In this document: piece after piece, positions 45,573 through 54,376 of the stretch
Layout: every line of letters begins with the position of its first letter
Numbering within the stretch: position 1 is the stretch's first letter
DNA from: Aquabacterium sp. OR-4
GTDB taxonomy: Bacteria > Pseudomonadota > Gammaproteobacteria > Burkholderiales > Burkholderiaceae_C
Assembly: GCF_025290835.2 (NCBI RefSeq)
Contig: NZ_JAOCQD020000001.1
Location: 1,922,001-1,986,000 of the forward strand
Length of the DNA: 64,000 bases
Direction: 5' to 3'
Program-made: the position numbers and the translations under genes
The notes under the pieces: generated by a model
Seen by the model: only the letters and a program-made list of their open reading frames with translations
Database searches by the model: none
What the model was told of the DNA's origin: nothing

Positions 45573-47357
45573 TCAGTTCTTCAGTGCCAAGGCGTAGGCC
45601 CCGGTGGTGCCGGTGCTGCGCAGCACCCGCAGCACCAGCGTGGTGGCGCTGCTGCCGCTGTTGCGGATGGTCACCTGCTGGCTGCGGCCAACCACGCCGG
45701 TGGCGCTGTAGATCGTCTGGCCGCTGCTGCTCAGCGCCGCCAGGCCGAAGCCCGAATTGCTGCCGGCGGTCAGCGTGGCGGTGATCGACTGGCCCGCGGC
45801 CAGCGTGACCCGGTAGTGGTCGAGGTCGGAATTGCTGGCCACGCTGCCGCTCACATTGACCGGCAGGCTGGCCACCACCTGGGCTGTGGCCAGCGTGTTG
45901 TTCGGCTCCACTTCCTTGAGCGTGGCCACAGTCACCACCGGCACCGGCGTGACGGTGGGGGCCCCCACCGCGGCCGCCACCGCGGCCGACGCATCCACGA
46001 TGCCCGCGCCACAACCGCTGCACGTGGCCGGAAACGCGCGCGCCGTGCTCTTGAGCAGGCTGGCCACCTGGTCGGGCGTGAGCTTCGGATTGGCGCTGAG
46101 CATCAGCGCGGCCACACCGCTGACCACCGGTGTGGCCATCGAGGTGCCCATGTAGGCGGCGTAACTGTCGGCGGCCGGCACCGAGGTGCCGGTGTTCAGC
46201 GTCGACAAGATGCCGCCCGCGCTGTCACCACCGGGTGCCGCGAGGCTCACATTGCTGCCGTAGTTCGAGTACGAGGCCTTGCCGCCGCTCTTGCCGGTGG
46301 CCGCCACCACCACCACACCGCTGCAATTGGCCGGCGTGGCACGGGTGGCATCGATGGCGCTGTTGCCCGCGGCCACCACCACCACCGCCCCGGCGGCGCG
46401 CGCGGTGTTGATGGCGTTCTGGGTCGTGGTGCCGCAGCCACCGATGCCGCCCAGCGACAGGTTGATCACCCGCGCCGGCGTGCCGTTGTTCGGCAGGCCG
46501 GCCACCGGCGTGCCCACCGCCCAGGCGATGGCGTCGGCAATGTCCGAGGTGTAGCCGCCGCAACGCCCCAGCGTGCGCAGCGGCAGCACCCGGGCGTTGA
46601 AGGCCACGCCCGCCACGCCGGCCGCATTGCCGGCCGCCGCCGCCACGATGCCGGCCACGTGCGTGCCATGCCACGAGCTGCGCGAGGCCGCCGTGCCGGT
46701 GCCGCAGAAGCCGGCGGCCACCGCATCGCCAGGGTCCTGCGCGTCGGCATCGCGGCCGTTGCCATCGGCCGACACCAGGGTGTCGGTGATGAAGTCATAA
46801 CCCGACAGCAGGTTGGGCGCCAGATCGACGTGCGGGCGCACACCGGTGTCGATCACTGCCACGGTCACGCCCGCGCCGGTGGCGCGGTCCCAGGCCGCGG
46901 GCGCGCGCACGCCGCCGGTGGCATCGAACAAGGCCCATTGCTGGCTGTACAGCGCATCGTTGGGCACGAACAGCGGCTGCAGCAGGCGGTCGGGCTCGGC
47001 GTACTCGATCGTGGCATCGGCCGAGCGCAGACTGGCCGCCAGCGATTCGGCCTCGACATGGCCCATGCGGCGACTCAGCTTGAACACCTGCGCGCCGGCA
47101 GCCGTCTGGCGCCAATGGTTCAGCTGCACGCCATGGCGACGGCCGGCGTTGTCGGCCAGCTGCTTGCCACGCGTGCTGGGCATCAGGCCGCTGGCCTTGC
47201 TGTACTTGATGATCAGCCGGTCGGTGCCCGGCCCATCCTGCTCGGCGACACTGGCCGCCCCCTGGAAGGCCAGCGCCGCAGGCGCGGCGGCCATCAGCGC
47301 CGAACAGGCGAGCGCCAGCGAGATCCGCCGGTGCGGATGCACAGAAGAAACAGTCAT
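45573..47357 (-). CDS. Secreted S8 (subtilisin-like) serine protease with PPC domain
   Basis: The 594-residue protease has a signal peptide (about 1-31, ending ALAF) and a propeptide-like region (about 40-125, with RLIIKYSK and IEYAEPDRLLQPL). The S8 catalytic domain (about 130-460) has the triad Asp170 (VAVIDTGVRPH), His230 (WHGTHVAG) and Ser406 (YMGTSMATP), plus the oxyanion Asn in AAGNSAID. The C-terminal pre-peptidase domain (about 490-590) begins VEPNNTLATAQ and is often removed on maturation. Several Cys in the catalytic domain may form disulfides. Its mRNA leader holds a c-di-GMP-I riboswitch, so this exported protease is probably controlled by the motile-sessile second messenger. Confidence 0.95.
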   Translation of the reverse strand: MTVSSVHPHRRISLALACSALMAAAPAALAFQGAASVAEQDGPGTDRLIIKYSKASGLMPSTRGKQLADNAGRRHGVQLNHWRQTAAGAQVFKLSRRMGHVEAESLAASLRSADATIEYAEPDRLLQPLFVPNDALYSQQWALFDATGGVRAPAAWDRATGAGVTVAVIDTGVRPHVDLAPNLLSGYDFITDTLVSADGNGRDADAQDPGDAVAAGFCGTGTAASRSSWHGTHVAGIVAAAAGNAAGVAGVAFNARVLPLRTLGRCGGYTSDIADAIAWAVGTPVAGLPNNGTPARVINLSLGGIGGCGTTTQNAINTARAAGAVVVVAAGNSAIDATRATPANCSGVVVVAATGKSGGKASYSNYGSNVSLAAPGGDSAGGILSTLNTGTSVPAADSYAAYMGTSMATPVVSGVAALMLSANPKLTPDQVASLLKSTARAFPATCSGCGAGIVDASAAVAAAVGAPTVTPVPVVTVATLKEVEPNNTLATAQVVASLPVNVSGSVASNSDLDHYRVTLAAGQSITATLTAGSNSGFGLAALSSSGQTIYSATGVVGRSQQVTIRNSGSSATTLVLRVLRSTGTTGAYALALKN

Positions 47358-47364
47358 GGAAACA

Positions 47365-47383
47365 TGCCTCGGTTCGATCGAGG
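47365..47383 (-). promoter_or_regulatory. Ribosome-binding-site hairpin of the protease leader
   Basis: On the minus strand GCCTCG-ATCGAAC-CGAGGC forms a 6-bp stem whose 3' arm contains the only Shine-Dalgarno candidate (GAGG, about 9 nt before the ATG). It sits between the riboswitch and the start codon, as an expression platform acting on translation would. Confidence 0.6.
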
Positions 47384-47395
47384 CCAGCCAATGAA

Positions 47396-47488
47396 CATCG
47401 GCCGGCAGCCCCGCTACCGTGGCCGTGATCGTCGGATCACGGCGTTAGGCCGGAGGCTTTGCGTCCCACGCTTTCGCATGGTTTGCGG
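47396..47488 (-). ncRNA. Cyclic di-GMP-I (GEMM) riboswitch
   Basis: The minus strand reads CGCAAACC, a GCGAAAGC tetraloop hairpin, then GGGACGCAAAGCCTCCGGCC and TAA. A hairpin with arms GTGAT/ATCAC follows, then CCACGGTAGCGGGGCTGCCG. This reproduces the GEMM-I consensus: GNRA tetraloop in P2, the GGGACGCAAAGCC core with the ligand-pairing G, CCGGCCTAA as part of the tetraloop receptor, and GGTAGCGGGG with the ligand-pairing C. Edges are approximate. It lies 38 nt upstream of the S8 protease start. Whether c-di-GMP turns the gene on or off cannot be read directly. Confidence 0.93.
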
Positions 47489-47503
47489 GAAGGGTTGCGG
47501 CGC

Positions 47504-47532
47504 ACTGTAGCGACGCACCGGCCGCGGGCCAA
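47504..47532 (-). promoter_or_regulatory. Promoter of the riboswitch-protease transcript
   Basis: On the minus strand TTGGCC (47527-47532) and TACAGT (47504-47509) are separated by 17 nt. Transcription would start near 47497, a few bases before the riboswitch aptamer. Spacing and position make this one of the better promoter predictions in the window. Confidence 0.65.
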
Positions 47533-47649
47533 GACACCACCGCGCCGAACGGCGGGCACGCGCGGATTCCTGCGCGCAGGCCGGTTCAAGTTTGCAAGCA
47601 AGCTGTAACCGGTGCGCGCGGCAACGACGCATCGTGAAGCACAGCCCAG

Positions 47650-47679
47650 AACGACGAAGCCCCGCATCGGCGGGGCTTC
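47650..47679 (-). terminator. Terminator downstream of tRNA-Cys
   Basis: GAAGCCCCGC (47656-47665) and GCGGGGCTTC (47670-47679) form a perfect 10-bp stem with an ATCG loop, 8 nt after the tRNA-Cys 3' end on the minus strand. On that strand TCGTTCT follows. Confidence 0.7.
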
Positions 47680-47687
47680 GATTGGAC

Positions 47688-47761
47688 TGGAGGCGCGATC
47701 CGGAGTCGAACCGGACTAGACGGATTTGCAATCCGTTGCATAACCGCTTTGCTATCGCGCC
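47688..47761 (-). tRNA. tRNA-Cys (GCA)
   Basis: The 74-nt minus-strand sequence folds as a cloverleaf. The acceptor is GGCGCGA paired with TCGCGCC. The anticodon arm is ACGGATTGCAAATCCGT, with GCA in the loop. The T arm is CCGGTTCGACTCCGG, and TCCA is encoded at the 3' end. Confidence 0.97.
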
Positions 47762-47855: not shown

Positions 47856-47931
47856 TGGAGCGGGAGACGAGGCTCGAACTCGCGACCTCAACCTTGGCAA
47901 GGTTGCGCTCTACCAACTGAGCTACTCCCGC
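47856..47931 (-). tRNA. tRNA-Gly (GCC)
   Basis: The 76-nt cloverleaf on the minus strand has acceptor GCGGGAG/CTCCCGC and D arm GCTCAGTTGGTAGAGC. The anticodon arm is CAACCTTGCCAAGGTTG with GCC in the loop. The T arm is GCGAGTTCGAGCCTCGT, and TCCA is encoded. Confidence 0.97.
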
Positions 47932-48073: not shown

Positions 48074-50506
<2,433 letters not shown>

Positions 50507-50642
50507 GGGAGACCTCTCTTTCTCAGACCGACATGGGGCCCGAGCAGGGGAATGCAAGTGAACAGGTCAAACGCAAGCCTCGGATGGCTTCGTCACAGAA
50601 AGCGGGGAGCGAATTGCGTCGTGAGCCCGCCGAGGTCGGTTC

Positions 50643-50681
50643 GAGCAGCACAGCCGTACACCCGTACGGCGAGCAGCACAG
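50643..50681. repeat. Hairpin flanked by direct repeats between clpX and lon
   Basis: GCCGTAC-ACCC-GTACGGC (50653-50670) is a perfect 7-bp hairpin, flanked by two copies of GAGCAGCACAG (50643-50653 and 50671-50681). It lies in the 215-bp clpX-lon gap. With no T-tract it may be a processing or regulator site rather than a terminator. Confidence 0.5.
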
Positions 50682-50721
50682 AACCGAGATCGGTGGGCGC
50701 AGCAGCAAAGCGCCCCCGCTT

Positions 50722-51987
50722 TCAGGCGCTGGCCTTGTGTTCGCGATAGACCAGCAGCGGCTTGGCGCCTTCCTCGACGATGTGCTCGTCGATCACCACC
50801 TTGGCCACGCCGTCCAGCGTTGGCAGATCGAACATCGTGTCGATCAGCACGTGTTCCATGATGGAGCGCAGACCGCGCGCCCCGGTCTTGCGCTTGAGCG
50901 CCTTGCGCGCGATGGCGCTGAGCGCGGAGTGGCGGATCTCGAGCTCGACACCATCCATCGAGAACAGCTTCTGGTACTGCTTGACCAGCGCGTTCTTGGG
51001 CTCGGTGAGGATCTGCACCATGGCGTCCTCGGTCAGCTCGCCCAGCGTGGCCACCACCGGCAGGCGGCCGACCAACTCGGGGATCAGGCCGAACTTGATG
51101 ATGTCTTCCGGCTCGGCTGAACGGAACAGATCGGCCGCACGCTTCTCGGTCTTGCTGTGCACGCTGGCCGAGAAGCCGATGCTCGACTTCTCGGTGCGGT
51201 TCTGGATGACCTTTTCCAGGCCGTCAAAGGCGCCGCCGCAGATGAACAGGATGTTGGTCGTGTCGATCTGCAGGAAGTCTTGATTGGGATGTTTGCGCCC
51301 GCCCTGCGGCGGCACGCTGGCCATCGTGCCTTCCACCAGCTTCAGCAGGGCCTGCTGCACGCCCTCGCCCGAGACATCGCGGGTGATGCTGGGGTTGTCG
51401 GCCTTGCGGCTGATCTTGTCGATCTCGTCGATGTAGACGATGCCGCGCTGCGCGCGCTCGACGTCGTAGTTGCAGTTCTGCAGCAGCTTCTGGATGATGT
51501 TTTCGACGTCCTCGCCCACGTAGCCGGCTTCGGTCAGCGTGGTGGCGTCGGCGATCACGAAGGGCACGTTGAGCAGGCGGGCCAGGGTCTGGGCCAGCAG
51601 CGTCTTGCCCGAGCCGGTGGGCCCGATCAGCAGGATGTTGCTCTTGGTGAGCTCGACCTCGTCCTTGCCGCTGCCGATGTGCTTGAGCCGCTTGTAGTGG
51701 TTGTACACCGCCACAGACAGCGTGCGCTTGGCCGCATCCTGGCCGATGACGTAGTTGTCGAGCGTGCTCTTGATCTCGGCCGGCACCGGCAGTTCGCTCT
51801 TGCCGGGCTTGGCTGCCGCGCCTTCGGCCGGAGCCTCGTCACGGATGATGTCGTTGCAAAGCTCGATGCACTCGTCGCAGATGAACACCGACGGGCCGGC
51901 GATGAGCTTCTTGACCTCGTGCTGGCTCTTACCGCAGAAGCTGCAGTACAGGACTTTTTCGCCTGAGGCGCCCTTCTTTTCGGCCAT
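50722..51987 (-). CDS. clpX: ATP-dependent Clp protease ATP-binding subunit ClpX
   Basis: ClpX unfolds tagged substrates and feeds them to ClpP. The 421-residue protein has the N-terminal zinc finger with C15, C18, C37 and C40 ([16 protein letters not shown]). The AAA+ core has Walker [17 protein letters not shown] and Walker [10 protein letters not shown]. The pore loop region [10 protein letters not shown] is present, as is an IGF-type ClpP-docking loop (SSIGFSASV). Length and motifs are standard. It lies 72 bp downstream of clpP on the minus strand. Confidence 0.98.
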
Positions 51988-52059
51988 GGTGGGTAATCGT
52001 GTGCGGAGAGAGGGCGGGAGGATTGCGGAAGCCGCGAGCCGATGATAAGGCGCGGCCGG

Positions 52060-52668
52060 TCAGCCGCGCTGGGCGATCACCTGGTCGATCAGGCCATAAC
52101 TCTTGGCGTCATCGGCCGACATGAAGTAGTCGCGCTCGGTGTCGGCCTGGATCTTTTCAAGCGGCTGGCCGGTGCGCTCGGCCAGGATCTTGTTGAGCTG
52201 CTCGCGGGTCTTGAGGATCTCGCGGGCATGGATCTCGATGTCGGTGGCCTGGCCCTGGGCGCCGCCCAGCGGCTGGTGGATCATGATCTTGCTGTTGGGC
52301 AGCGACACGCGCTTGCCCTTGGCGCCGGCCGACAGCAGGAAGGCGCCCATGCTGGCCGCCATGCCGATGCACAGCGTGGAGACATCGGGCTTGATGAAGT
52401 TCATCGTGTCGTAGATCGACAGGCCGGCCGAGACGCTGCCGCCCGGGCTGTTGATGTACAGGAAGATGTCCTTGTCGGGGTTCTCGCTCTCCAGGAAGAG
52501 CAACTGCGCCACCACGACATTGGCCGTGGCGTCGTTCACCGGGCCCACCAGGAACACGATGCGCTCACGCAGCAGGCGGCTGTAGATGTCGTAAGCACGC
52601 TCACCCCGGCCCGACTGCTCGATCACCATGGGCACCAGGCCCAGGGCTTGCGTCTCCAATGCGCTCAT
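52060..52668 (-). CDS. clpP: ATP-dependent Clp protease proteolytic subunit ClpP
   Basis: ClpP forms the double-heptameric peptidase chamber. The 202-residue protein has the nucleophile Ser106 in [10 protein letters not shown] and His131 in [30 protein letters not shown] is the axial-loop N-terminus of processed ClpP. ATG 52668 has GAGGA 5 nt upstream; a longer in-frame GTG/ATG option is not needed. Minus-strand CATAAT at 52697-52702 is a possible -10 box. Confidence 0.98.
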
Positions 52669-52731
52669 GAAAGTCCTCGAAAAACGGTCTGCGTCGATTA
52701 TGACCCGCATGCGAAAGGGCTGCAGGCGATG

Positions 52732-52768
52732 AAAAACGGGGCGACGACCCTGCTAGTCGTTCGCCCCG
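52732..52768 (-). terminator. Rho-independent terminator after tig
   Basis: CGGGGCGACGAC (52737-52748) pairs with GTCG-TTCGCCCCG (52756-52768) over 12 bp with one bulge. On the minus strand it is followed by TTTTTC. It lies about 54 bp after the tig stop and before clpP, so clpP probably has its own promoter. Confidence 0.8.
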
Positions 52769-52822
52769 TCGGGCCGGGATCCGGTGTGGCACAGGGCCAG
52801 CCGGACCGCGGCAGCGCCTGGA

Positions 52823-54130
52823 TCAGGCCGTCATCAGCTCGTCGAAGGGCAGCGCCTTTTCGACCACCTTGGCATTGGCCAGCACGTGCTCGGCCACGTT
52901 GTTCTCGATCACCACGGCCTCGACCTCGGCCATGCGCTGGCGGTCGCTGAGGTACCAGCGCACCACTTCAGTCGGCTTCTCGTAGCTCTGCGACAGCTCT
53001 TCGATGTGGGCCTGCAGTTGCTCGGGCTTGGCCTGCAGGTTGTTCGACTTGACCAGTTCGGCCACCACCAGACCCAGGCGCACGCGGCGCTCGGCCTGCG
53101 GCGTGAAGATCTCGGTGGGGATCGGCGCCTTGTCGGCGTCCTTCATGCCGCGCTGCTTCAGGTCTTCACGGGCCGAGGCCACCAGGCGCTCGAGCTCGCT
53201 GTCGATCAGGGCCTTGGGCAGGTCGAGCTCGGCCACCTTGACCAGCGCGTCCATGGCCGCCGACTTGTTGCGCGCCAGCACGCGGAACTTGACCTCGCGC
53301 TCGAGGTTCTTCTTCACGTCGGCGCGCAGCGCGTCGACCGTGCCGTCTTCCAGGCCCAGGCTCTTGATGAAGGCCTCGTCCACCTCGGGCAGGTTCTGGG
53401 CTTCGATCTTCTTGGTGGTGACCAGGAAGTCGGCTTCCTTGCCGGCCACGTCCTTGCCGTGGTAATCCTCGGGGAACTGCAGCGGGAAGGTCTTGCTCTC
53501 GCCGACCTTCATGCCGCGCACGGCCTTGTCGAACTGCTCGAGCATCTGGCCTTCGCCGATCAGGAACTGGAAGCCCTCGGCCTTGCCGCCATCGAAGGGC
53601 TCGCCGTCGATCTTGCCTTCGAAGTCGATGGTCACGCGATCGCCTTCGGCGGCGCCTTCGGCAGCCGGACGCTGCGCGAAGGTGCGGCGCTGCTTGCGCA
53701 GGATGTCGACGGTGCGGTCGATCGCGGCGTCGGTCACCTCGCTGGTGACCCGCTCGACTTCCACGGCCGACAGCTCGCCGAGCTTGACCTCGGGGTAGAC
53801 CTCGAAGGTGGCGTCAAAGGCCAGCTGGCCTTCGGGCGCGTCTTCCTTGGGCGTGACGCGCGGCGTGCCGGCCACGCGCAGCTGGGCTTCGTTGGCGGCG
53901 CTGGCGAAGGCACGGCCGAGCTGGTCGTTCATGACCTCGTTCTGCACCGACCAGCCGTAGCGCTGGGCCACCACCGACATCGGCACCTTGCCCGGGCGGA
54001 AGCCGTCGGCCTTGACGGTGCGCGAGAGCTTCTTCAGCCGCGACTCGACTTCGGTGTTGAGCGAATCGGCCGGAATCGTCAGGGTGATGCGACGTTCGAG
54101 CTTTTCGAGGGTTTCTACAGTGACAGCCAT
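52823..54130 (-). CDS. tig: Trigger factor (ribosome-associated chaperone/PPIase)
   Basis: Trigger factor binds nascent chains at the ribosome exit tunnel. The 435-residue protein has the N-terminal ribosome-binding domain with the signature [12 protein letters not shown] (usually GFRxGKxP, about 43-54). The FKBP-type PPIase domain (about 155-245, [20 protein letters not shown]) and the helical C-terminal domain follow. Length matches the family (432 in E. coli). ATG 54130 starts [15 protein letters not shown] tRNA-Leu gene lies 27 bp upstream, so tig may be co-transcribed with it. Confidence 0.97.
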
Positions 54131-54157
54131 GGTGGAGACTCGCAAATGAATCGTTTC

Positions 54158-54244
54158 TGGTGCGCGGGGCCGGACTCGAACCGGCACGCCCGTGAAGGCG
54201 TCAGGACCTAAACCTGGTGCGTCTACCGATTTCGCCACCCGCGC
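54158..54244 (-). tRNA. tRNA-Leu (UAG)
   Basis: The 87-nt minus-strand sequence has acceptor GCGCGGG and an anticodon arm CCAGGTTTAGGTCCTG with TAG in the loop. A long variable arm (GACGCCTTCACGGGCGT) typical of class II tRNA-Leu follows. The T arm is CCGGTTCGAGTCCGG, and ACCA is encoded. Confidence 0.97.
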
Positions 54245-54376
54245 GGGTTGTCTCTTCGCCGCTGCCCGGGCAACCCGCGAGGGCTGCCGAGGCACCGGTC
54301 AAAACGTACGAGGGAAACCGGCTCCAGCCATACAAACTGGCGAAGCCGACCTCCCGGGCGATCCGGTAAACCGGCG

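Follow-up and report, generated by a model that had tools for sequence, protein, structure and literature searches.

A GEMM-I riboswitch leader with C at position 20 precedes a secreted S8 protease gene in Aquabacterium and is proposed to act as a translational OFF switch

Introduction

Does the leader of a secreted protease gene of Aquabacterium sp. OR-4 carry a c-di-GMP riboswitch, which ligand would it bind, and in which direction would binding act upon the gene? The leader lies within a stretch of 64,000 nucleotides (assembly GCF_025290835.2, contig NZ_JAOCQD020000001.1, positions 1,922,001 to 1,986,000), here called the window, and the coordinates below are those of the window. The original prediction had placed a GEMM-I aptamer and a promoter before a secreted subtilisin-like protease gene, proposed a covariance-model run as the check, and supposed that direct control by c-di-GMP would tie proteolysis to the sessile/motile choice.

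Results

A GEMM-I aptamer heads the protease gene

The covariance model RF01051 (c-di-GMP-I/GEMM-I) matched the minus strand at 47401-47497 in a cmscan run, with 67.8 bits and E 3.9e-11 against a gathering score of 35, which places the leader within the family; the match was full length (model positions 1-87 of 87), with no non-standard pairs marked. No second RF01051 match was seen in the 6.63-Mb genome, and none at all in 14 control genomes. The aptamer 3' end is followed by 43 nt and then by the ATG of the protease gene. The predicted GEMM-I leader was thus confirmed by the proposed run, and the motifs named for it are present: the GAAA tetraloop, the GGGACGCAAAGCC core, the CCGGCCTAA receptor and GGTAGCGGGG. 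The gene itself (45573..47357, minus strand) encodes a protein of 594 aa having a Peptidase_S8 domain (PF00082, E 3.5e-57) and the catalytic triad motifs DTG at 170, HGTH at 230 and GTSMA at 404; its N-terminus, judged by eye, resembles a signal peptide, in agreement with the secreted subtilisin-like protease originally claimed.

Leader bases are numbered by counting from Vc2. The C92 equivalent is at 47405 (minus strand; alignment position C94); in Vc2, the ligand pairs with C92. The residues named in PMC9049102 and PMC4744006 agree with the numbering used here, and G20, A47 and C92 are the ligand-contacting residues in the latter. The window leader has A47, C92, the interhelical C44-G83 pair, the GAAA tetraloop and its receptor.

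S8 relatives were found in 88 of 399 family genomes at E <= 1e-80 (weaker places were left out), and 90 S8 loci with upstream DNA were analysed with a covariance model of our own, built from 30 aptamers, three of which (L001, L033 and L054) recur among these loci as L179, L189 and L181. An aptamer was detected upstream in 17 of these 90 loci (11 with C at position 20 and 6 with G, hereafter C20 and G20) and in 5 of 80 S8 loci on named contigs (all C20, one being the Inhella locus again). A motif scan returned the same 5 of 80 and saw 15 of the 17, missing L201 and L206. Both sets together with G471, and with the Inhella locus counted once, make up 22 distinct orthologous leaders, 16 C20 and 6 G20, counts that include close relatives. 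Orthologous leaders scored above the RF01051 cut-off in 17 of 17 genomes searched. The proteases behind them are 55-70% identical to the window protein, and G21, C22, C44-G45-C46, A47, G83, G91, C92, C93 and the GAAA loop were invariant in 22/22 leaders of the alignment, with small changes in the receptor. These data support the view that a c-di-GMP-I family RNA heads the protease gene and that the pair is conserved. The family holding the C20 leaders is, by its named members, Sphaerotilaceae.

On a quick tree of 77 S8 rows (the Inhella protein entered twice; L221 and L247 not included), 20 aptamer-bearing rows formed one starred clade (16 C20, 4 G20), one further aptamer-bearing protein, L087 (Aquabacterium), lay outside it, and 56 rows had no aptamer. 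Base 20 switched between C and G more than once on this tree, and three genera of this protease group have leaders with G20.

Upstream of the riboswitch the window has two tRNA genes (47691-47761 and 47859-47931) and, by eye, frames resembling Lon, ClpX, ClpP and trigger factor within 48074-54295. None of 10 orthologous loci scanned contained a tRNA gene, unlike the window; synteny with tRNA genes was therefore rejected, and the aptamer and protease stay together where the neighbourhood differs.

Position 20 is C in most of the protease leaders

With the invariant CGCAAAG core as the reference point, Vc2 position 20 corresponds to the base immediately preceding GCAAACC (47487, minus strand), which in the window is C: neither the G expected of a c-di-GMP-I member nor the A of the 3',3'-cGAMP variant of GEMM-I. 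The original prediction, right as to the aptamer, had overlooked this base. Among 85 RF01051 matches from 149 genomes searched (that of the window included), 76 had G at position 20, six had A, two had C and one had T; with 9 of 85 matches lacking it, G20 is not an absolute mark of the family. The two C20 matches, from the window and from Inhella crocodyli (G040), both precede orthologous proteases, and a third RF01051 match before an orthologous protease (L033) has G20.

Five C20 genomes contain a second GEMM-I copy (L048 and L300-L303), and in 5/5 this copy has G20, so that the change is peculiar to the protease leader and does not belong to the lineage. A strict C20 pattern matched in 12 of 399 family genomes, with no matches of the reversed-pattern control, and 12/12 matches precede an orthologous S8 gene, so that a search of these 399 genomes for C20 outside the protease leaders yielded no candidate. 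A looser C20 pattern matched in 2 of 399 order genomes, and a non-G20 pattern in 2 of 398 phylum genomes; all of these patterns prescribe some of the P2 shape, so that aptamers shaped otherwise escape them.

The six G20 leaders (L188, L189, L190, L195, L221 and L247) have C19 in 6/6, compared with 9/70 of the other G20 aptamers. C19 or C20 might pair with G91; in a smaller variant of the altered-specificity reading discussed below, this pairing, made by C20 or, in G20 leaders, by C19, would seal the junction in place of P1. By eye, the pyrimidine-rich 5' end might also pair with GCGGGG, aided by C20. Four GEMM-I-like matches from other families of the order (L060, L067, L068 and L071) combine A or T at position 20 with a CGGAAAG core in place of CGCAAAG, a combination that resembles the Geobacter cGAMP switches; two of the four lie about 1.2 kb apart in G104.

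The usual P1 helix is mostly missing

The window leader has no in-register P1, although an out-of-register stem of 4 pairs exists. An in-register P1 of at least 4 pairs was present in 1/22 leaders versus 19/63 other GEMM-I; the latter set, like the G91-stem and downstream-frame counts below, leaves out L061, a true G20 aptamer. Since only 19/63 of the others have it, absence of P1 is common here, and P1-lessness was rejected as a hallmark of the protease-leader group alone; the RF01051 structure line likewise shows no P1. In seven leaders the start would fall about 5 nt or less before GCAAA, leaving no space for a P1 strand. PMC9262584 reports that Vc2 needs its P1 in order to bind, whereas Cd1 binds its ligand although no P1 was detected.

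The scarcity of P1, taken with C20, could mean that ligand binding has been lost and that the aptamer is retained merely as a structured 5' UTR with a hairpin over the Shine-Dalgarno (SD) sequence. We regard such a loss as very unlikely, because the other bases of the ligand site and of the interhelical contacts are invariant in all 22 leaders in spite of the divergence of the proteases, and because P1 is likewise scarce among other GEMM-I.

P4 takes up the C92 strand and adjoins a hairpin that holds the SD

The alignment of 22 leaders shows one layout: the core, GCC (G91-C92-C93), a variable hairpin mostly closed by GGC, mostly CUCG..CGAGGC, and the start codon. In the window the variable hairpin, P4 (47383..47406, minus strand), is GCCGGCCGAU-GUUC-AUUGGCUGGC, with 10 pairs in the fold called state A and an arm starting G91-C92-C93. 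The adjoining hairpin, GCCUCG-AUCGAAC-CGAGGC (47366..47384, minus strand), holds the SD sequence GAGG (47367..47370, minus strand, 9 nt before ATG) and has 4 pairs in state A and 6 in the alternative state B. Bases 47383-47384 are common to both hairpins.

P4 covaries. Its own-arm pairs over the 22 leaders numbered 117/132 versus 83.3 +/- 4.4 after shuffling (0/5000 shuffles as high, the best reaching 99); 91.3% of its cells were paired versus 79.5 +/- 1.1 in shuffles, and its covariation was 0.374 versus 0.142 and 0.141. A stem that begins at G91 and runs for 8 pairs or more was found in 19/22 leaders versus 5/78 other GEMM-I; L087 deviates from the pattern, and the stems of L188 and L189 are weaker. 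Cells of the SD hairpin were paired at 94.3% (state A) and 95.5% (state B) over the 22 leaders, one of which alters both sides of a pair. The C92 strand is therefore taken up by a covarying P4, and the adjoining hairpin holds the SD. We infer that P4 substitutes for P1.

Energy minimisation folds the window leader into state A, P4 included. In state A the G and C of UGGCCUCG have C92 and G91 as partners; in state B they lengthen the SD helix instead; the states differed on average by +0.25 +/- 0.91 kcal/mol, a near-equality that is partly built in because two G-C pairs move between helices. Since P4 shares two bases with the SD hairpin, freeing C92 for a ligand lengthens the SD helix. When G91 and C92 were forced free, the computed cost of opening the SD rose in 20/22 leaders (mean +1.7 kcal/mol; from 3.3 to 7.0 kcal/mol in the window leader), compared with 0.01 +/- 0.75 kcal/mol when random aptamer dinucleotides were freed. 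The effect reached at least 1 kcal/mol in only 14/22 leaders, was near zero in L087, L173, L174 and L189 and negative in L119 and L171, and in eight leaders at least 2 of 20 random dinucleotides matched it; the SD is, moreover, largely paired even in state A.

The direction of this change points to a ligand-OFF switch. The opposite sign, by which ligand binding would turn translation of the protease ON, has precedents in the class I ON switches Vc1 and Cdi-1-1, described in PMC4744006 and PMC6200980 respectively, and the two leaders L119 and L171, in which the SD opens more easily with C92 free, would suit it. We consider it improbable, since SD opening became harder in the other 20 leaders, though some of these values are close to zero, and since the conserved C after GAGG is unneeded for the SD and fits the longer SD helix.

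Which ligand?

Mutation of G20 in Vc2 is reported in PMC4744006 to lower c-di-GMP binding 30,000-fold, and the equivalent base is termed a selectivity factor in PMC9262584. The original claim of direct c-di-GMP control thus stands for the family of the RNA that precedes the gene, and is weakened by C20 as regards the ligand itself.

One explanation of C20 is a change of ligand, such that another cyclic dinucleotide, e.g., 3',3'-cGAMP, is bound. At the Watson-Crick edge, C and A offer the same donor-acceptor pair, and A20 forms of GEMM-I bind cGAMP. The window genome holds one CD-NTase-like cyclase (G000:C4:659367-659819, L299; best PADLOC match PDLC00783, E 1.1e-63); C20 prevails in the protease leaders, yet the second GEMM-I copies all keep G; and G20A GEMM-I binds cGAMP according to PMC6274999. 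However, a search of 11 other C20 genomes yielded no SMODS/CD-NTase cyclase. In the window genome, which has 44 GGDEF matches, the standard Asp occupied the base-selecting site in 29 of 30 retrieved (L297 and 14 weaker matches lie outside this reading), so that no Hypr cGAMP synthase was seen among them. The recurrence of G20 in three genera of the same protease group also favours interchangeability of the two bases. We therefore think a change of ligand unlikely, and hold equally doubtful its extension to a GEMM-I subclass, spread across several genera of one family, in which C20 and a 3' hairpin replacing P1 would serve a signal other than c-di-GMP while other copies keep the c-di-GMP base. 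The cyclase results taken together make c-di-GMP, bound at lower affinity, the likelier ligand.

A possible promoter and no terminator

TTGGCC (47527..47532, minus strand; 4/6 consensus matches and below the scan threshold) and TACAGT (47504..47509, minus strand) are a possible -35 and -10 separated by 17 nt, which would put the transcript start about 11 nt upstream of GCAAA. By manual count they match 8 of 12 consensus bases, and a consensus promoter scan of 47350-47680 at a threshold of 9 of 12 found none. A -10-like hexamer was present 7-23 nt before GCAAA in 13/22 leaders, versus 0 to 2/22 in 15 other intervals of equal width (shuffled leaders: mean 2.7, maximum 9/22 in 300 shuffles), and the other 9/22 leaders had none in that interval. 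The promoter is thus weaker than first described and falls below threshold when taken alone, but the recurrent hexamer speaks for it. There was no terminator-like site in 47350-47680, and an intrinsic terminator platform was rejected.

Discussion

We propose that the GEMM-I riboswitch is a translational ligand-OFF switch of the secreted S8 protease whose ligand is most likely c-di-GMP bound at reduced affinity, a reading drawn from sequence and modelled folds to which we give roughly even credence. In ligand-free RNA, G91 and C92 would be paired with GGC at the end of P4, leaving the SD hairpin only 4 pairs, which ribosomes are proposed to be able to open. Binding would require unpaired G91 and C92; in the bound state P4 would start at C93 and occupy the usual place of the P1 helix, and the released G and C of the SD hairpin arm would lengthen its helix to GCCUCG/CGAGGC, with 6 pairs, shutting off translation. 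The P4/SD layout would thus be a simple translational switch of two base pairs. C20 and the missing P1 would both reduce affinity for c-di-GMP, and the switch would then operate in a higher range of cellular concentration. Protease would be made at low c-di-GMP (motile or dispersing cells) and turned off at high c-di-GMP (sessile cells). The link to the sessile/motile choice made by the original prediction, which gave neither direction nor mechanism, is plausible by the precedent of C. difficile PPEP-1, as described in PMC11477304.

Ligand specificity in the GEMM-I family is known to hinge on base 20, with G recognising c-di-GMP and A favouring cGAMP. A C that is conserved and toggles with G in one orthologous set, with G20 paralogues serving as controls in the same cells, makes affinity tuning versus ligand change directly testable. 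In the open-licence literature, among the matches listed, we recognised no report of a natural C20 GEMM-I, nor any of a Burkholderiales S8 protease gene preceded by a c-di-GMP riboswitch, and so found no published account of either.

A second, distant group of S8 proteins also lies behind G20 GEMM-I aptamers (L010, L011, L004, L016, L017, L018, L032, L035 and L038); these are 33-39% identical to the window protein, several have Ig-like domains, and several of their aptamers have an in-register P1. S8 was the commonest Pfam family downstream of GEMM-I (17/81 frames), and the other recurring frames were DUF1631 (10/81), M12 reprolysin-like metallopeptidases (8/81) and chemotaxis receptors (4/81); the 81 frames were picked mechanically from the 85 RF01051 matches, leaving out three without a frame and L061, which has no S8 downstream.

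Three known systems may be compared. The Geobacter pilM GEMM-I variants have A20 and bind 3',3'-cGAMP. The present leaders resemble them in a natural change at the same pocket base, at which the G20A form of GEMM-I is reported to bind cGAMP in PMC6274999; they differ in having C, not A, and none of the 29 GGDEF domains read in the window genome showed a Hypr signature. Vc2 of Vibrio cholerae, a GEMM-I translational OFF riboswitch according to PMC9262584, shares with our leader the aptamer family, A47, C92, C44-G83 and the tetraloop bases and, if our model holds, the translational OFF direction; unlike Vc2, which has G20 and requires P1, the protease leaders have mostly C20, mostly lack an in-register P1, and place a 3' hairpin on the P1 3' strand. 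The closest parallel in output is C. difficile PPEP-1/ZmpI, a secreted metalloprotease under the class I c-di-GMP OFF switch Cdi-1-12, as given in PMC11477304 and PMC6200980; control of an exported protease by a class I OFF switch is thus already known. Cdi-1-12 is a clostridial RNA and its target a metalloprotease, whereas the target here is an S8 protease; in both cases a class I switch lies upstream of an exported protease, with c-di-GMP acting negatively there and, by our model, probably here. From the repeated link between GEMM-I and S8 genes, c-di-GMP signalling in this bacterial order appears to have exported proteolysis among its regular outputs, in parallel with C. difficile PPEP-1.
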